Made by a program: the position numbers and the translations under genes
Notes under the pieces: model-generated
The model's input: only the letters and a program-made list of their open reading frames with translations
The model's database searches: none
Told to the model about the DNA's origin: nothing
In this document: one piece after another, positions 2,819-50,216 of the stretch
Position numbering within the stretch: the stretch's first letter is position 1
Layout: each line of letters opens with the position of its first letter
Assembly: GCF_963082655.1 (NCBI RefSeq)
Contig: NC_081554.1
Span: forward strand, 45,070,291-45,134,290
DNA: 64,000 nucleotides
From: Stomoxys calcitrans
Lineage: Eukaryota > Arthropoda > Insecta > Diptera > Muscidae
Reading direction: 5' to 3'

Positions 2819-4603
2819 TACTAGCTGGACAGGGCCCGCTCCGCTACGCCTTCTTTTACTTTATATGGAACAAAATTATCCTTCGAATATTTATCTTCGA
2901 CAATTAATGAGCTTTTAGTGAAATATCATTCTACGAAAATATTGGATTGCCCAAAAAGTAATTGCGGATTTTTCATATAGTCGGCGTTGACAAATTTTTT
3001 CACAGCTTGTGACTCTGTAATTGCATTCTTTCTTCTGTCAGTTATCAGCTGTTACTTTTAGCTTGCTTTTGAAAAAAAGTGTAAAAAAGTATATTTGATT
3101 AAAGTTCATTCTAAGTTTCATTAAAAATGCATTTACTTTCTTTTAAAAAATCCGCAATTACTTTTTGGGCAACCCAACATGCATGCATGTCGCTAGACTA
3201 ACAGTATAACTATAATGCCTCTTTCTGAATCCCATTTGATCTTTATTGGACTACGAATTGTACTCGGAGGGTTTAATGTCATTTAAGTTTGGATGTACGA
3301 TGTACTCCATTCTTAAAAGATTTCAGCCAATATTCTCATGATGTCCGATTTAGTGGTGTTTTCGGTGGTGAAGAGGTGCCTGGCTCTGAAAAAAATATAA
3401 GCGTCGTGCTCTTCTCTCAAATACCATTTATTTAAACCCCAAATTGCCATTGGTTTAAGGAGATTTTATAGGACGAGGCGTCCCCCAAACACTTTACCCC
3501 AAAAATGGTTATTAAATTTGTTTTCTTATCTCAAATATCTTTCATTTAAACCACATATTGGCATAGTCAGTAAATTTTTACACTTTAGGGGGTGTTTTGG
3601 GGAAGGGGAGGTGCCCCAAAAACATTGTGCCAAATACCTTTATCTGAGCCCCATATTGTGATGGTCAGTAAATAATTGTTGTTTGTGTGTGGTATTTTGG
3701 GAAAGGGGTAGACCCCCATAAAATTGGTCCCGAAAGTGGGTACCAATTTCGTGTTCTACTCCCCAATACCTTTCATTTGAGTCCCACATCGACATTGTCG
3801 GCAAATATGCCCGTTTTCTAATTTCAAATACATTTAATTTAAATCTCTTATTGCAAAAGTAAGGAAATATGTTCGGTTTGGGGTATGGACCTTAAAAGTT
3901 ATCAGTAACGAGCTCTTGAAGGCCCAAATTGTCTTGGCGGGCTAATACGTCCTACTTGGGGGGTTTTTATGGTGTTGGGACGTCCCGTAGACAGTTGGAC
4001 CCGAATGTTGATATCAGATGCGTGGTCTACTCTCAATAACCTTTCATTTGAGCCCCATATTTACATAGTCGGTAAACATGACCGGTTTGGGGGATGGGGC
4101 AGCCACTCAGTGACTCGGCCTTGAAAATATATATCAGATTCGCGTCCGACTCTAAAATACTTCTTATTTGAGCCCCATATTGCAATGGTCAGCAAATACA
4201 TCCTATTTGGGTGGTGTTATGGGGGTGGAGTTGCCCCATAGAAACTTTTTCCCGAATATTGATATCAGTTGCTTAGTTCCCAAAGATCTTTCATTTGAGC
4301 TCCATATTGTTATGGTCGTTAATGTGTCCTCTTTGGACCATGTTTTTGAGAAGGGGCGCCCCCCCTGAAACATTTGCTCCCACATTTGGATATCACATTC
4401 GTATTCTACACTCAAATAGCTTTTATTTGAGACCCATATTGCCATGGTCGGTAAATATGTCCGATTTAGGGGTATTTTGGGGGTTGCGGTAGTCCCCCAA
4501 AATCTTGATCCAACAATTGGATATGAGATAAGTTTTCTAATCTTAAATACCTTTCATTTGAAAATTTTCTGAAAATTAGGGTAAGGGGGAGGGTCCTCCC
4601 CCT
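2819..4603 (+). mobile_element. D-type element with 120-132 bp tandem repeats
   Basis: Begins at ctagctggacagggcccgct and continues as repeats built on catttgagccccatattg, with starts near 4045, 4165, 4292 and 4424. G-rich stretches (gggggtggggc) alternate with the motif. A mariner MITE sits inside at 2942-3177. The block is cut off at a B-type HLE near 4604, so the CAAA-rich 3' end seen in other copies is absent. The ctgacccggc-like start resembles ends common in insect non-LTR-derived repeats; the class is not certain. Confidence 0.5.
2942..3177. mobile_element. Mariner-type MITE, copy 1
   Basis: A 236-bp element with inverted termini TTGGRTTGCCCAAAAAGTAA and its complement, both continuing into TTGCGGATTTTT. 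TA precedes it (2940-2941); the right flank is CA rather than TA. A near-identical copy lies at 19884-20119. No transposase is encoded, so it must have been mobilised in trans. Confidence 0.85.
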
Positions 4604-5649: not shown

Positions 5650-6625
5650 TTTCTTTTTTTTTAGCTAGGGTGCTTAGTTCAGCAGATACTGCCAATTTAA
5701 AGTTTTCATATAGAAATTTCTAATTTTTTGATAAATCTTCCAAAAATTTTGATTTTTTGATGGAGTCACGAATAAACGTCTATTTCCCTCTAGGATGTAT
5801 AGTTTAAGAGATACAGCAAGTTAAAAGTTGTCGTAGTGAAATTTCGAATTTTGATGGATTTTCCATAAAATTTCTAAATTTTTGATGGAGTCATGAATTA
5901 AGACCCGTTTCCCTCTAGGAGGCATAGTTAGGGCGATACAACCAATTTAAAGTTTTCATAGTGAAATATCGATTTTTGATTAGATTTTCTACGAAATTTT
6001 GAATTTTTTGATGGAGTCACGAATTAAGGCCCATTTTCCTTTGGAGCGCATAGTTTTGGAGATACAATCAATTTAAAGTTTTCATAGTGAAATTTAGATT
6101 TCTGATGAATTTTCTATAAAATTGTGAATTTTTTGATGGAGTCACGAATTAAGGCCCATTTTCCTTTGGAGCGCATAGTTTTGGAGATACAATCAATTTA
6201 AAGTTTGCATGGTGAAATTTTGATTTCTGATAGATTTTCTATAAATGTTTAAAGTTTTTGATGGAGTCACGAATTGAGGCCAATTTCCCTCTAGGACGCA
6301 TAGTTAAGGAGATACAATCAATTTAAAGTTTTCATAGTGAAATTTAGATTTCTGATGGATTTTCCATAAAATTTTGAATTTTTCGATGGAGTCACGAATT
6401 AAGGTCGATATTCCTCTAGGACGCGTAATTAAGGAGATACAGCCAATTTAAAGTTCTAAAGTTAAAAATTCGATTTTTGACGGATTTTTCATGAATGTTT
6501 GAGATTTTTAGTCTCATCTCCACACTTATCCTAAAGTGTACAATGTGTTGGAGTAAAGCCTATAGCGAATGTTCCGATATTGCAAACGAAATGGCAAAAT
6601 GTGTATACCCCACCCTAAAAATTTT
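5650..6625. repeat. F-type tandem array, 125-bp unit
   Basis: The phrase gatggagtcacgaattaagg recurs near 5759, 5884, 6010, 6135, 6260 and 6385, a steady 125-bp step. Each unit also has tctaggacgcatagttaaggag and tttaaagttttcatagtgaaatt. The block ends at tgtataccccaccctaaaaa (about 6600-6620), similar to HLE ends, so it may be the core of another such element. Confidence 0.75.
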
Positions 6626-15626: not shown

Positions 15627-16966
15627 AGGTAAAAGCGTGTTAAATTCGGCCGGGTCGAATCTTATATACCCTCCACCATGGATCGCATTTGTCGAGTTCT
15701 TTTCCCGGTGTCTCTTTTTAGGCAAACAAAGGAAAGGATAAAAAAGCAAATTATTATGCTATTGAAGCTATATTAAGTTCGATTCGGATCATAATAGAAT
15801 GTATGTTGGAGACCATAGTAGAAGTCATTGTGTAAAATTTCTGCCAAATCGAATAATGATTTCGCCCTTAAGGGCTCAAAAAGTAAAATAGGGAGATCAT
15901 TTTATAGGTATTAGGTTATAGACCGATTCAGACCATATTTGACACGTATGTTCAAGGGAGAAGCCGTTGTATAAAATTTCATCCAAATCAGATAATACTT
16001 GCGCCCTATGGAGGCTCAGGAAGTCAAGATCCCAGATCGGTTAATGTGACAGGTATATCAAGTTATGGATCGATTTGAACCGTACTTTGCACAATTGTTA
16101 AAAGTCATAACGAAACACCTCATGCAAAATTTAAGCCAAATCGGATAAGAATTAACTCCTCTAGTGACTCAAGAAGTCAAGATTCCAGATCGGTTTATAT
16201 GGCAGCTATATCAGGTTATGAATCGATTGGATCCATACTTTGTACAGTTGCTGGAAGTCATGACGAAACACATCGTGCAAAATTTCAGCCAAAGCGGATA
16301 GGAATTGCGCCCTCTAGTGGTTCAAGAAGGCAAGATTCATGATCGGTTTATATAGCAGCTATATCAGGTTATGAACACATTAGAACCATACTTTGTATAG
16401 TTGTGCTGGAAGTCATGACAAAACACGTCGTGCAAAATTTCAGCCAAATTGGATAGGAATTGCGCCCTCTAGAGGCACAAGAATTCAAGACTCAAGATCG
16501 GTTTATTTGGCAGCTATATCAAAACATGGACCGAAATGGTTCATTTACAATCCCAACCGATCTATACCTATTTGAAGTATTTGTGCAAAATTTGAAGCGG
16601 CTAGCTTTACTCCTTCGAAAGTTAGCGTGCTTTCGACAGACAGACGGACGGACCGACAGACGGACAGACGGACGGACCGACAGACGGACAGACAGACGGA
16701 CGGACAGACGGACGGAAAGACGGACGGACGGACAGACGGACAGACGGACGGACAGACGGACGGACAGACAGAAGGACGGACGGACAGACGGACAGACGGA
16801 CGGACGGATGGACGGATGGATGGACATGGCTTGATCGACATAAAATGTCATGACGATCAAGAATATGTATACTTTATGGGGTCTGAGACGAATATTTCGA
16901 GGAGTTACAAGCAGAATGACAAAATTGGTATACCCCCATCCTATGGTGGAGGGTATAAAAACAAAT
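15627..16966 (+). mobile_element. Helentron-like element, A core, full length
   Basis: Runs from aacaggtaaaagcgtgttaaattcgg through ataccctccaccatggatcgc, about five core units with gcgccctctag, a 191-bp GACR array, tcatgacgatcaagaatatg and cgaggagttacaagcagaatg, to cctatggtggagggtataaaa. A good reference copy for the family's layout in this window. Confidence 0.8.
16635..16825. repeat. GACR (GTCY complement) microsatellite
   Basis: 191 bp of gacagacggacgg with irregular cagacgga/cggacgga order, ending gatggatggacatgg. It occupies the microsatellite slot of the surrounding HLE. Confidence 0.9.
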
Positions 16967-18178
16967 AAAAAGGTGTTAATTTCGGCCAAGCCATCTTTTG
17001 ATGGGTATCCATGGTATTATGTAAACCATTTTTGTCATAATCCGGTGAAAATGCATAATTTATGCCCCCATAGGAGCTTTACCGAAATATGGTCCGATTT
17101 GGACCAAATTCGACACGGATATTGAGAGGTCTAATAAGTATAATTCACTGTTCAATTTTGTAGAACAAAATATTGGTTTTTTGTAGCCATATCCAATTAT
17201 AGACCGATCTGAACTATATACAACACGGATGTCGAGAAGCCTAACATAAGTCACTATGTTAAATTTGAGCAAAATCAGATTAAAATGTGCCTTTTATGGG
17301 GGTAAGACTTTAAAGCGAGAGATCGGTCTGTATGGCAGCTACATCCAAATCTGGAACGTTGTGAGTCAAATTAAGGACGAATGTCAAAGGCCGTAACACA
17401 AGTCACTGTCCAAAATTTCGGCGACATAGGACCACAAGACCTTTTATGGATCCAAGACCTTAAATCGAGAGATCGGTCTATATGGCAGCTATATCAAAAG
17501 CTGGACCGATCTATTCCAAATTGACGAAGCATGTCGAATGGCCTAACATAGCTCACGGTCTCAAATTTCGGCGAAATCGGACAATAAATGCGTCTTTCAT
17601 GGGTCCAAAACCTTAATTAGAGAGATCGGTCTATATGGCAGCTATTTCCAAACCGGAACCGATCTGAACCAAATTGAAGAAAGATGTCGACTGGCCTAAC
17701 ACAACTCACTGTTCCAAATTTTGCCAAAATCGGACAATAAATGCGCTTTTTATAGGCCCAAGACCTTAAATCGAGAGATTGGTCTATATGGCAGCTATAT
17801 CCAAATCTGGACCAATCAAAGCCAAATTGAAGAAGAATATCGAAGGGCCTAACGCAATTCACTATCCCAATTTTCAGCAAAATCGGATAATAAATGTGGA
17901 TTTTATGGGCCTAAGCCCATATTCGAACTTAACCTGCTTATGGACAAAAAGAAGAATCTGTACAAAGTTTCAGCTCACTATCTCTTTTTTTAAAGACTGT
18001 AGCGTGATTTCAACAGACAGACGGCCGGACACACCGACGGACATGGCTAGATCGTCTCAGATTTTTACGCTGATCAAGAATATATATATTGTATAGTGTC
18101 GGAAATGGATATTTCGATGTTTAGCAAACGGAATGACAAAATGTATATATTCTCATCCTTCGGTGGTGGGTATACAAA
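16967..18178 (+). mobile_element. Helentron-like element, B core, full length
   Basis: Starts aaaaaggtgttaatttcggcc and gggtatccatgg, with the B leader (accatttttgtcataatccgg). Core units read gagagatcggtctatatggcagctatatccaaatctgg with aaatcggacaataaatgcg. Tail: cagacagacggccggacac, tagatcgtctcagatttttacg and tcggtggtgggtatac. Third in the head-to-tail series. Confidence 0.75.
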
Positions 18179-18180
18179 TT

Positions 18181-18312
18181 CAACGGTGAATATCCCCTCC
18201 TAATGCTAACGATATTTATGAGATACTATGTCATGTAGAGACTTCTTCCTATGAGGTGTCGCAGTGCGGCGCGCCGTTCAGGCTCGGCTATAAAAAGGAG
18301 AGCTATTACCTC
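18181..18312 (+). mobile_element. tRNA-derived SINE, central fragment
   Basis: Contains cccctcctaatgctaacg, gaggtgtcgcagtgcggc and ctcggctataaaaaggag, the central body of the SINE, without the tRNA-like head or the tail. Confidence 0.75.
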
Positions 18313-18771
18313 TAGCTTTGGATCGATGTTCATCTACAAACTGTACTGCCTGCAACTGGAAATTTGCTTTCACCTTTTCTATTCGATCAGATAAGGTTTT
18401 CCGAAATTTCTTCTCAGCATCAAGTACATGTGAGGTGGGATGGTAGATCACTGAAGAAACGACTCAGTTTCCCCACAATTTGCGACAAAATTTAATATTT
18501 ATTACATATTTCTTTTAATAAATTTTTATTTGTTTTTGAAAAATTCTTGAGTAAAAACTTTATAACAAAATTTTTAAAAATAAAAATTTGAACTATTTTT
18601 TCAGATAATCTTACCACGCTGTTAAGAAAGTAAAATAAATAAATTTTTTACATTCAATTAATGACTAGAAGTCCATCATTATCATCATAAATTGTCATCA
18701 TCTACTACAATTTAAGGGGTAAGTCTTGCAAATACATCTCCTTCTTAATCTTAACCATCAAACTGTGATTG
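18313..18771. other. Unique AT-rich DNA downstream of the unc80-like fragment
   Basis: No exon recognised. On the minus strand this follows the putative stop codon at 18772 and could include former 3' UTR; AT-rich stretches such as attttttacattcaatt are present but no poly(A) signal can be singled out. Confidence 0.4.
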
Positions 18772-18979
18772 TTAAATGAGTGTATCCTCATCTTGACTCT
18801 AATAAACCATTAAAAGTGAATATTGAGAGGGTGAAAGGCCCAAGGTCAAACCTCCCAGAGAAACATCGAGTGATATGAGACCAGTTTGTAGACTATTGGT
18901 GTAACGATAACCGGAAGTGGATGAAGTTTTGCAATACCGAATCCCATGAAATTTCTCCAATAGGCTTGGGATGCTCTTC
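18772..18979 (-). pseudogene. unc80: unc80-like terminal exon
   Basis: Acceptor accctatcccag, then EEHPKPIGEISWDS; an extra A near 18929 shifts the frame, after which TSSTSGYR, NSLQTGLISLDVSLGGLTLG and SPSQYSLLMVY follow, then TAG, SQDEDTLI and stop TAA (18772-18774). The TAG near the end may stand for an original Glu codon (GAG). Confidence 0.65.
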
Positions 18980-19062
18980 CTGGGATAGGGTTGTGACATG
19001 TGATTAGTTAAAGACTCTATAGCAATCCATTCTTTCTTTTGCTTTTAATGCGATGAACTTAC

Positions 19063-19586
19063 TATACTCGGTGGTTCCATGGGGGTGAGACGGCTACGCT
19101 TCAAACGAAACGTTTTGCGGCTAGCAACCTTTGTCCTTTGTAATCTTGAGCGTGTACGATCTCCCGAGCTATCCTCTGCTGGACTTTCGGGCGATAGTGG
19201 TGTGCTGGAAGTCTCCCCTGAGGCTTGTCTAAATTCTACCGAAGAGACAAAACGTAACTTTGGTGGCTATGTTTCGAAGGGAGCCTGTTGCAAACTCTGG
19301 GAATACGATAGCTCTGAGGTTATCCCTGATGGCAAAGCTGTGTCAATGGTGGCAGAGCTGGTACCCTGGCAGGATGCCACACCTGATCGTGAGGCCCCAA
19401 TTAGCGTAGGAGCTGAACCTGATTGCCTGAATACCACCACTATAACTTTCACTGGTAGTGGTGTGATGATCTTTGCCCTGGAACTGGTTGACTGCGATTC
19501 TTTTGGAGGAGGTAACATTTAATGGGGCTGAGTGTCGCTGGGCATACAAATACCGTCGGAGCCGCTGCGGGAGTCAATGGGTGCCG
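19063..19586 (-). pseudogene. unc80: unc80-like exon 3 of 4
   Basis: Acceptor actaacacatttcag at 19587. Reads APIDSRSGSDGICMPSDTQP, changes frame to NVTSSKRIAVNQFQGKDHH, and changes again to a Ser/Thr-rich stretch (GITSELSYSQSLQQAPFET), TAG, PPKLRFVSSVEFRQASGE, ETSSTPLSPESPAEDSSGD and a basic SRKTFRLKRSR. Donor is the consensus GTAAGT at 19062-19057. The plus strand here is also open for 147 codons, which I treat as a shadow. Confidence 0.65.
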
Positions 19587-19883
19587 CTGAAATGTGTTAG
19601 TGTGTAGCTTGCCCTGTAGTGGTACCAGTGAAAATTGAAATTAAAGAAGGTCGTTGTTGTGATTTATTATGAACATCTGTACCACAAGCCACAAGGCCAC
19701 AAGCCCGCTGGGGTGTCACTCTTCATTTGGTCGGAACTCTCACGATCTGGAAATTGTAGTTCGACAATGAAAATAATTTAAGAAAATGTTCAAGGAAGTT
19801 GATATTCAATTCATATCAAAGCAACGATATGAAGTCGAACCGTTTTTCGCTTGGAAATACCCTTCGATAAATGGAGGGATGTA

Positions 19884-20119
19884 TGGGTTGCCCAAAAAGT
19901 AATTGCTGATTTTTCATATAGTCGGCGTTGACAAATTTTTTCACAGCTTGTGACTCTGTAATTGCATTCTTTCTTCTGTCAGTTATCAGCTGTTACTTTT
20001 AGCTTGCTTTAGAAAAAAAGTGTAAAAAAAGTATACTTGATTAAAGTTCATTCTAAGTTTTATTAAAAATGCATTTACTTCCTTTTAAAAAATCCGCAAT
20101 TACTTTTTGGGCAACCCAA
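19884..20119. mobile_element. Mariner-type MITE, copy 2, in an unc80-like intron
   Basis: 236 bp with termini TGGGTTGCCCAAAAAGTAAT and complement, preceded by TA (19882-19883). Differs from copy 1 (2942-3177) at only about seven positions. It lies inside the intron between unc80-like exons 2 and 3, close to the donor at 20133. Confidence 0.85.
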
Positions 20120-20133
20120 AAAAAAAGTCTTAC

Positions 20134-20301
20134 CCTAACGTATTTCCTCCAGCCCATCTCTGAGATCCCTACTGTTTCGAGCCAATTCAAAAAGCAAGGC
20201 TCGTTTGGATTTTATGCCCCTCTGGAGTGGAGTACCTCTTAATCTCTCTCGTATAAGGAACTGCATATGATCTCATGATCTCCTATGGAAGGCTGGGATA
20301 T
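20134..20301 (-). pseudogene. unc80: unc80-like exon 2 of 4
   Basis: Acceptor gacctacttgcag, then ISQPSIGDHE; one base is missing near 20270-20271, after which the frame reads MQFLIRERLRGTPLQ and onward to GLEEIR, ending TAG G before donor GTAAGAC. The single leftover base joins the first two bases of the next exon to make GCG (Ala). Confidence 0.65.
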
Positions 20302-20364
20302 CTGCAAGTAGGTCAAACATTTTCGAAAGGTTTATAGAAAAAACTTTTTTGCACTTTCGCTAAC

Positions 20365-21024
20365 CTTAACCAAAATAAAAGGCAGCAACACTATATACAG
20401 AGGTGTTCTATGGGTTGCCACAAACTTCAAGAAACTCCATAGGACAAGGACAGCCTCATTTCTTCTTCCCAAATCCCTCATGACTCTTACAATTCTAGGC
20501 CATTTTGTTGAAAGGCGACTCTCAAAGGATATGCAGACTATGCGCAGGCCCAAAAAGGCTGCCTGGTAAAGGGAGCTAGCGATGCAGGCTATTCTTTTGG
20601 CATCTCTGCCGCCCGTAAAGGTTATCGAACTTGTTCTCCAATCTCCTGCCACACGATTAATTTCCGAAACAGCGTGGCCTGTGTGTCCTGCAGTAGGACT
20701 CGTGGCATCTAAAACGGCCGTTAGCAAATAGCTGGCATCGGTCATTTTCAATTCGCCCACATCGGAAACACCTCGGCCGGAGTATAGCTTCAAGCATAGT
20801 GGCGTTATCAAATGCATTGGATGTCCTTTGGCCTTGTCCTGTGTGGATAATTCGATAAAGCCTCTACATATTTTCACCAGGGAAGAAGAATCGACAGGAC
20901 TTACCGCTGTGCATTGCTACCAGGCCTACCACAGTCGAGCAAAAGAAGGCCGGCGGTGTGTTTTACATTCGACTTTGATGACAAGGGGAATGATGATATA
21001 TGTCTCTATTTCCTGTATCTGTGC
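20365..21024 (-). pseudogene. unc80: unc80-like exon 1 of 4
   Basis: Acceptor aaaaatccag precedes gcacagatacag (exon start 21024, tentative). The frame reads IETYIIIPLVIKVECKTHRR, then two TAG codons (LW-stop-AW-stop-QC), then an uninterrupted stretch of about 185 codons with KICRGFIELSTQ, MTDASYLLTAVLDATSP, IACIASSLYQAAFLGL and KWPRIVRVMRDLG. Both stops fit CAG-to-TAG changes. Donor AAG/GTTAGC at 20365; the next intron is 63 bp. Confidence 0.65.
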
Positions 21025-21288
21025 CTGGATTTTTGCTACTTTACTTGTTTGAAATTTAAACTTAAACTAATTTTACTTTAGTAGAATTTAAAATTCCCTT
21101 AAGTACGGATCACAAGCATGTTAATGAAAAAAAAAAAAAAAACGAATTCAACAAAGTTTAATTTTCTGGTTATAGTATATGTTCAATTATTCCATTCCTG
21201 GGTACAATGTATCTCAGACAGATGGGGTGTGGTCTCGACCTAATAAGAGCACTTATCATATTCATTGAACTAGTGCGTTCCTCTACTT
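21025..21288. other. Unique AT-rich DNA, possible former intron
   Basis: Upstream (on the minus strand) of the first unc80-like exon seen here. Contains an A-run at 21127-21142. No further exon recognised. Confidence 0.4.
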
Positions 21289-27773: not shown

Positions 27774-27973
27774 NNNNNNNNNNNNNNNNNNNNNNNNNNN
27801 NNNNNNNNNNNNNNNNNNNNNNNNNNNNNNNNNNNNNNNNNNNNNNNNNNNNNNNNNNNNNNNNNNNNNNNNNNNNNNNNNNNNNNNNNNNNNNNNNNNN
27901 NNNNNNNNNNNNNNNNNNNNNNNNNNNNNNNNNNNNNNNNNNNNNNNNNNNNNNNNNNNNNNNNNNNNNNNNN
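27774..27973. other. Assembly gap, 200 N
   Basis: Exactly 200 N, the look of a fixed-size scaffold gap; the true size is unknown. Left flank is A core, right flank is gaaaaaaagttattac, so a repeat boundary is hidden here. Confidence 0.99.
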
Positions 27974-40860: not shown

Positions 40861-41050
40861 AAAGCCCACCTGGTCGTTAAGTTTGGAGCTATCGATATAG
40901 AAGTCTATGTTACTTCTATTGCCAGAGATATGTAGTTGCAATCGGCCAGGTGGGCTTTGGGGTATAAAGCCCACCTGGTCGTTAAGTTTGGAGCCATCGA
41001 TATAGAAGTCTATGTTACTTCTATTGCCAGAGATATGTAGTTGCAATCGG
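40861..41050. repeat. 85-bp direct duplication with inverted 20-bp spacer in the LOA RNase H region
   Basis: 40861-40945 and 40966-41050 are near-identical, both from aaagcccacctggtcgttaag to gtagttgcaatcgg. The 20-bp spacer 40946-40965 is the inverted complement of 40856-40873 (accccaaagcccacctgg) and neighbours. It duplicates the FYIDGSKLND segment. Confidence 0.9.
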
Positions 41051-42881: not shown

Positions 42882-44333
42882 TTCTTATCATCGCCTCCTT
42901 ATTATCGTCTTAGCTCATCGAAATATTGATCTGCGACTCATTAAAGTTCATATGTTCTTGATCGCCTAAGTCCTAAGTCGTTCTTACAATGTGTGTCCAT
43001 GCTTCTGTCTGTCTGTCTGACAGACAGACTGACGGAGTAACGCTAGACACTTGAAATTGTGCACATCCAAGTATTTTATTTTGACTTCCAACAACTCTGC
43101 CAACTATATTCCAAATCGGTTTATAATCTGATATAGCTCCCATATAAACCGATCTCGCATCTTGACTTCTTGAGCCGCTAGAGGGCAAAAGTGGTATCCG
43201 ATTCTTACTTCTAACAACTGCGCCAAATATGGTCTAAATCGGTTCATAACCTGATATAGCTCCCATATAAACCGATTTCGGACCTTGGCTTCTTGATCTG
43301 ATAGGATCTTGACTTCTACAGCGGATAGAGGGCGCAATTACTATTTGACTTGGCATGATGTGATTTGTGCTTGTTTTTAAATTGCGCCAAATATGGTCCA
43401 AACCGGTTTATGACCTGATATAGCTACCATATAAACTGATCTTTGACTTCTTGAGCCGCTAGAGGGCGCTATTATCCGATTTGGCTGAAATTTTGCATGA
43501 AGTGTTTTGGTTTGACCCTCAACAACTGCATTAACTATGGTTCACATCGGCTTATAACCTGATGTAGCTCCGATGTAAACCGATTTGAGATCTTGACTTC
43601 TTCAGCCGATAGAGGGCGCAATTATTGTTAGATTTGGCTGAAATTGAAAATGAAAAACAACAACGGTGCTAAGATCGTCTAAATTGGTTCATAACCTGAT
43701 GTAGCTCCCATGTAAACCGATTTCTGATCTTGAATTCTTGAACCGTTAGAGGGCGCAATTATTATCAGCTTTGGCTAAAATTTTTTTTGAAACGTTTTGT
43801 TGTAAATTCTAACAACTGCTCCAAGTATTGTTCAAATCGGTTCATAACCTGATATAGCTCCCATATAAACTGATCTTTGATCTTGGCTTCTTGAGCCGCT
43901 AGAGGGCGCAATTGTTATTAGATTTGGCTAAAATTTTGCTTGAATTGTTTTGGATTGACCATCAACAACTGCGTTAAGTATGGTCCACATCGGTTCATAA
44001 CCTGATTAAGCTGCCATATAAACTGATCTTTGATCTTGACTTCTTGAGCCGCTAGAGGGCGCAATTTTTATCAGATTTTGCTGAAATTTTTCATGAAGTG
44101 TTTTGGTTTGACCATCAACAACTGCGTTAAGTATGGTTCACATCGGCTTATAACCTGATATAGCTCCGATGTAAACCGATTTGAGATCTTGACTTCTTCA
44201 GCCGCTAGAGGGCGCAACTATTATTAGATTTGGCTGAAATTTTGCTTGAGGTGTTTTTTCCAAATTTTAAGAACTGCGCAAGTATGGTTCAAATCAGTTC
44301 GTAACCTGATATACTTCCCATATAACCTTCAAC
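42882..44333 (-). mobile_element. Helentron-like element, A core, long
   Basis: Degraded 3' terminus (catcgaaatattgatctgcgac, ttcttgatcgcctaagtcc), a small inverted GTCY tract (43007-43029), then about eight core units (agccgctagagggcgcaatt, ctcccatataaaccgat). No 5' terminus; it abuts a B-type element at 44334. Confidence 0.7.
43007..43029. repeat. Inverted GTCY microsatellite palindrome
   Basis: GTCTGTCTGTC, T, GACAGACAGAC: perfect 11-bp arms around one base, at the place where HLEs carry a one-direction GTCY tract. Confidence 0.9.
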
Positions 44334-49372: not shown

Positions 49373-50216
49373 TAAAATTGGAAAAAAATGCATGAAATCT
49401 TTTTGTTTGAATCGAAAGTATGTTCTATATAATTTAATGTTTGAAGATTATTTCATGCAAATGTTGACCGTGACTGCGCCTCAAATGGTCCATCTGCTTA
49501 GCCCAACATTTCAGCCAGTATCTCACGAATAAATGCATCAATGTTGTCTTCCAATGCACCAATTGAAGCGGTCTGGTCTGATAGACATGAGCTTTAACAT
49601 AGCCCCACAAAAAATAGTCTAAGGGCGTTAAATAGCATGAACTAGGCGGCCAATTGACCGATCTCGAACGTGAAATGAAATGTTCACCGAACTCGCCTCT
49701 CAATAAGTCCATTGTTGAGACATGTAGCACGGTCTTATTGAAACCACATGTCCTGCAAGTTAATCTCTTGCATTTTGGGCAAAAAAAGTTGGGTACCATC
49801 TCACGATAGATGGTACTCACCATTCACCTCACGATTCGCATCATCTTTGAAGAAGTACGGTCCAATGATGCCACCGCCATATAAACCTCACCAAACCATG
49901 TTTTTATCTGGATGCATTGGTAGCTCTTGGAATGCTTTTGGCTGATCGTCACTCCAAAATCGACAATTCTGCCAACTGTACCCAATGAGCCAGAAATGAG
50001 CTTCGTCGCCGAAGTAGAAGCGCGCGATGAACTTTCTTAACAGAGCACGCATTTGGATAATAAAATTCAATAATTTGCAAGCGTTATTCGAGTGTAAGAG
50101 ATTTATGGTTAGATAATAGACCAAACTGAAGATGTTTGACAATGAAACCTAACACAAACCGTGCATGAGCTGTTTAAACCAATGTTGCCAATAAGATAAT
50201 AGCTTAAAAATTACCC
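49373..50216 (-). pseudogene. Tc1/mariner-family transposon, second copy
   Basis: Reverse-strand transposase segments: SDEAHFWLIGYSWQNCRFW (first acidic residue in DEAHF), QELPMHPDK, FKDDANRE-like, then TMDLLRGEFGEHFISRSR and CYLTPLDYFLWGYVKAHVY, where the Asp found before LTP in the first copy is Tyr. The right end aaaaattaccc resembles the GGGTGATTTTTT terminus with changes; the left terminus is not complete. Inactive. Confidence 0.75.

Follow-up and report, generated by a model that had tools for sequence, protein, structure and literature searches.

A putative duplicated pseudogene of the 3' end of unc80 that retains its introns and carries a later MITE insertion

The window, i.e., the whole stretch of 64,000 nucleotides that was analyzed (G000:C3:45070291-45134290), contains on its minus strand a block of damaged coding sequence. 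Judged from its sequence, the supported reading is that this block is a partial, intron-retaining, duplicated pseudogene derived from the unc80 3' end. Its parent, located on contig C2 of the same genome, encodes UNC80, the auxiliary subunit of the NALCN/narrow abdomen channel, and the two are 85-89% identical in nucleotides across the copied part. Unlike the parental gene, the window copy lacks everything before position ~858 of the UNC80_C profile and is not translatable. The features of the locus and the copied part of the parent are as follows (window positions unless a contig is given).

20956 to ~18302 (C3:45088592-45091246), minus strand: the whole putative unc80 pseudogene, delimited by homology to the parent
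20957..21286, strand not assigned: non-unc80 sequence adjoining the 5' breakpoint; a genome search returned only itself
20365..20956, minus strand: exon A, its 5' end cut in mid-exon; +1 frameshift near 20911-20908
20302..20364, minus strand: intron 1, phase 0; GTTAGC as donor and TTGCAG as acceptor, the same in the parent
20134..20301, minus strand: exon B; -1 frameshift near 20271, TAT (Y) to TAG at 20137-20135
19747..20133, minus strand: intron 2, phase 1, containing the MITE; placed by alignment to the parent
19884..20119, minus strand: mariner-type MITE of 236 bp with terminal inverted repeats TTGGGTTGCCC...; flanked by TA on the right, with no TA seen on the left
19063..19746, minus strand: exon C; +13, -1 and +1 frameshifts, TAA at 19599-19597, TAA at 19521-19519, TAG at 19269-19267
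18998..19062, minus strand: intron 3, phase 0; donor GTAAGT retained, acceptor AG replaced by AT at 18999-18998
18772..18997, minus strand: exon D, including the terminal stop; +1 frameshift near 18931, GAG (E) to TAG at 18801-18799
18302..18771, minus strand: copied 3' UTR and downstream sequence; homology to 18326 by BLAST and to ~18302 by global alignment
18179..18301, strand not assigned: repeat fragment adjoining the 3' breakpoint, interrupted inside the element; beyond this point, five other window copies continue
C2:96629475 to ~96627068, minus strand: copied part of the unc80 parent, located by DNA match

The first-pass annotation had recognized four minus-strand exons of an unc80-like gene, and this assignment was confirmed. 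The longest open reading frame (ORF) of the block (20916-20335, 194 codons) matches the Pfam family UNC80_C with an E-value of 9e-33 and 113.6 bits, where the curated cut-off is 22.1 bits, and a read-through of exons A-D reaches 119.8 bits, with exons A and B aligning to profile positions 858-1078 of 1079, its very end. Membership of the UNC80 family by sequence origin is further indicated by matches to PDB chains titled 'Protein unc-80 homolog' (2e-13). Exons B-C-D are 68% identical to GH23510 of Drosophila grimshawi over 100% of the query, and exon A shows 66% identity to protein homologs with 98% coverage. When 73 aa of exon C were searched against proteins, no candidates were returned, and none of four pieces of exons B-D scored above the Pfam cut-off; one weak match to PknH_C was taken for chance. 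Among the publications listed on unc80 and pseudogenes, none appeared to be about this copy, judged by their titles.

The 5' limit had to be revised. An exon edge at 21024 or 21012 was rejected: homology to the parent stops at 20956, in mid-exon, and the exon continues upstream in the parent and in homologs. The segment 20957-21024, which had been assigned to the gene, is not unc80. When the residues of the upstream exon from six homologs were aligned to 21300-20957, the scores were no better than those of 30 shuffles each. The start of exon A lies in another frame than first read (PPAFFCSTVV...). The TAA at 20965 falls outside the copied part and was excluded from the lesion count, and the two TAGs in the frame-1 reading of 21012-20917 are out of frame.

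A DNA search of the same genome (1.07 Gb) revealed a second copy at C2:96627544-96629475 with 89% identity and a gap at the position of the MITE. In this search, the best 40 of 2339 candidates were scored and MITE matches were dominant; the copy count was repeated without the MITE. The DNA of parental exons A-B then matched two places (2 of 2 candidates scored), and that of exons C-D with the 3' flank also two, plus matches of 70 bp (80%) and 82 bp (76%) (5 of 5 candidates scored). Within the scope of these searches, the genome would contain one unc80 gene and one pseudogene. All four coding blocks are open in the C2 copy, an intact paralog (C2:96629475-96627544) that is far closer to other insects than the window copy is: its exons B, C and D are 91%, 87% and 92% identical to those of D. 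grimshawi, and its exon A is 84% identical to homolog P0001. The second, intact copy with higher identity to other flies that had been put forward as support for the pseudogene is thus present (84-92%). Parental exon A sits in an ORF of 594 aa that matches UNC80_C with an E-value of 5e-172. UNC80 Pfam domains (C-terminal, central or N-terminal) were found in 7 of 10 parental ORFs, sampled ORF by ORF rather than as a spliced cDNA. The central and N-terminal domains are encoded upstream on the strand of the parent; for UNC80_N, where 6 of 6 candidates were scored, all three genome matches lie on that strand at 70-85 kb upstream.

Ahead of the last exon, the parent has a pair of in-frame AG acceptors separated by 18 nt (TTGCAG/GTAACCGCCCTATCACAG/GAA, L010:745-783, C2:96627744-96627782), which could give rise to two C-terminal isoforms.

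The presence of this gene, with its C-terminal, central and N-terminal domains, refutes the idea that the window locus is the sole unc80 of the species, caught in decay, for which there is practically no chance left. Against that idea also stands the finding that no other unc80 exon was detected in the window: in a tblastn search with 10 parental ORFs, the best match outside the pseudogene had an E-value of 0.087. The statement that the window holds no other host-gene-like sequence was likewise upheld, in a scan that covered 10 other window ORFs of the 43 listed: no upstream unc80 exon was found, and none of these ORFs matched a Pfam family above the cut-off, with RVT_1 and DUF4397 as weak matches.

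Relative to the parent, the window copy carries six coding frameshifts, five in-frame stops and one lost acceptor, with all four exons affected. The frameshifts are +1 in exon A, -1 in exon B, +13, -1 and +1 in exon C, and +1 in exon D. In the parental frame, the stops replace Y by TAG in exon B, S by TAA and Q by TAA and by TAG in exon C, and E by TAG in exon D. The earlier description of a frameshift, a TAG or both in each exon is therefore right as to the damage of all four exons, but the stops include TAA beside TAG. Similarly, the proposed GT/AG splice sites with agreeing phases at three junctions hold for five of the six sites, i.e., all three donors and two of the three acceptors, which match those of the parent. 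The acceptor of exon D is mutated (TTGCAG/GTAACC in the parent versus CACAT/GTCACA in the window), and the AG preceding 18979 that fits the phases read earlier lies in the interior of exon D, 18 nt further in, where the phase is preserved. The final peptide SQDEDTLI had been recognized as UNC80-like; the parental tail reads GQDEDTLI, a form also found in the Drosophila homologs P0023 and P0024, and the S is a change in the window copy. Given six frameshifts, five stops and a window in which no exons were detected further upstream, the copy does not qualify as a functional UNC80 gene. We infer that it makes no UNC80 protein and is silent. It is very improbable that the fragment is transcribed, e.g., from the promoter of a neighboring transposon, and that the resulting RNA acts on the parental unc80 message, e.g., through small RNAs.

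Loss of coding constraint is also apparent from the substitutions. The dN/dS ratio between the window copy and the parent is 0.553 (bootstrap 0.40-0.79; dS 0.158, dN 0.087; 546 comparable codons), where about 0.5 is expected for an unconstrained copy beside a constrained parent. Taken alone, exon D gives a ratio of 0.23 and exon A one of 0.95, a wide scatter that is read as small-sample noise. Of 61 amino-acid differences polarized with homologs (108 of 119 homologs found, 45 of which passed at an identity of at least 55% to the parent), 57 fall on the window copy, none on the parent and four on neither; this evidence for decay is independent of the indels. Furthermore, at 185 sites invariant in at least five homologs, the window copy differs at 34 and the parent at two. 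In a leave-one-out control, 22 of the 23 homologs examined showed differences at 0-8 conserved columns each (at most 10%). The exception, the functional homolog P0054 of the moth Eumeta, differed at 33 of 160, above the 34 of 185 in the window copy, and the conserved-column test alone would therefore not separate dead from living copies. The dN/dS ratio and the polarized changes together demonstrate relaxed constraint, and the window copy would have evolved neutrally after it was copied.

Substitution divergence from the parent amounts to 9-15% in the exons and the 3' flank, and in the introns to 25% for intron 3 and 10% for the measured part of intron 2, in segments for which 20957 was taken as the edge and the boundaries of exon A/intron 1 and of exon B deviate by 2 bases. 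The divergence of the exons and 3' flank is at odds with an assembly artefact or a haplotype duplicate with consensus errors, an explanation for which a run of exactly 200 N inside the window (27774-27973), i.e., a scaffold gap, might be adduced. An artefact would also have to account for the 57 of 61 polarizable changes on the window side with none on that of the parent, for a MITE on the window side that is missing from the parent, and for flanks in which the parental locus does not run on; it is extremely unlikely. A Drosophila-like figure for neutral change is 1 to 1.5% per million years per lineage. At that rate, the dS of 0.158 would correspond to roughly 5-8 million years, to be read as an order of magnitude only.

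How the copy arose may be deduced from its introns and its ends. All three parental introns align in the window copy. At the 3' side, the copy ends ~450-470 bp after the stop codon and ~180-220 bp past the parental AATAAA (C2:96627286), with the parental end of homology at C2:96627103 by BLAST and at ~96627068 by global alignment, and no poly(A) tract is present at the 3' junction. The retained introns, the sequence beyond AATAAA and the absence of poly(A) together point to duplication at the DNA level, as had been concluded earlier from the introns. The same features speak against retroposition of an unspliced pre-mRNA, in which the introns would stem from the unspliced template and the missing 5' part from incomplete reverse transcription. 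A 5' end in mid-exon does resemble that of 5'-truncated retrocopies, but the 71-base stretches surrounding its two ends have no word of more than 5 bases in common, and this origin is very improbable. Like processed pseudogenes, the window copy is 5'-truncated and dispersed; it differs from them in keeping its introns, in passing the polyadenylation signal without a poly(A) tract and in showing no target-site duplication, and does not belong to that class, which is defined by absent introns and poly(A).

The preferred reading, to which a probability of roughly 97% is assigned, is that a DNA copy of the unc80 3' end moved from C2 to C3, decayed neutrally and received a MITE afterwards. Some 2.4 kb would have been copied, starting within the large exon, taking in three introns and the last exon, and ending past the polyadenylation signal. 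It would have reached C3 without a promoter or 5' exons, presumably dead on arrival, after which frameshifts, stops and the loss of an acceptor would have accumulated and a mariner-type MITE would have inserted into intron 2. Since neither breakpoint coincides with a recognized element end and no target-site duplication was seen at the breakpoints, the segment would have been joined by non-homologous insertion, e.g., during break repair, rather than by transposition, or else a larger duplication may have been trimmed later by rearrangement, as the left junction lies inside a repeat fragment.

Capture by a transposon (Helitron/Pack-type) would likewise leave a piece of an intron-bearing gene between repeats. 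It was rejected, as there is no recognized element end at either breakpoint and only a single such copy in the copy-count searches: the 5' flank found nothing but itself in the genome (1 of 1 candidates), a result that does not prove rarity, and the other flank is an internally broken repeat. Apart from its location on another contig rather than in tandem, its length of ~2.4 kb and the later MITE, nothing essential distinguishes the DNA copy from typical duplicated (non-processed) pseudogenes, with which it shares introns, a partial extent without the 5' end, an intact parent elsewhere, lesions and a neutral dN/dS.

The element in intron 2 can be placed among the Tc1/mariner MITEs by its terminal inverted repeats, its copy number and the TA flanks of its copies: more than 30 near-full-length copies are among the genome matches listed, and TA was found on both sides of the copies L004 and L005 and on the right side of the copy in the intron. 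The view that it entered the intron after duplication was borne out: it is absent from the C2 parent, and it is 96-99% identical to the full-length genome copies listed, as compared with the 9-15% by which the exons and 3' flank of the pseudogene diverge from the parent. Another copy of the 236-bp MITE, 97% identical to that in the pseudogene, is present in the window at 2943-3177.

The pseudogene is one more instance of a very common kind, an ordinary genomic fossil, and opens no long-standing question. In annotation, it carries the risk that a gene finder takes the long frame of exon A as part of a live gene or counts unc80 twice. On the other hand, it offers a neutral sequence that can be dated and that stands next to a highly conserved parent, of use for neutral substitution and indel rates and the timing of MITEs in a fly genome.

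The window consists mostly of repeats, with 65% of its bases matching other positions inside it. Much of it is made of many arrays in which a unit of ~153 bp is repeated in tandem and of long arrays of GTCC/GACGGACA (15973-16521, 17239-17909, 43383-44325 and others). The segment 11478-12059 matches RVT_1 weakly (E-value 6e-4, under the curated cut-off) and is likely a decayed LINE fragment. At 49437-49823, a frame resembles the end of a mariner transposase by eye, with no Pfam match at an E-value of 0.01. A 125-bp tandem array of ~6.7 copies, unlike the 153-bp family, occupies 5675-6509, and within an open frame, at 40861-41050, a 105-bp tandem duplication is nearly perfect (98%) and reflects a recent event.
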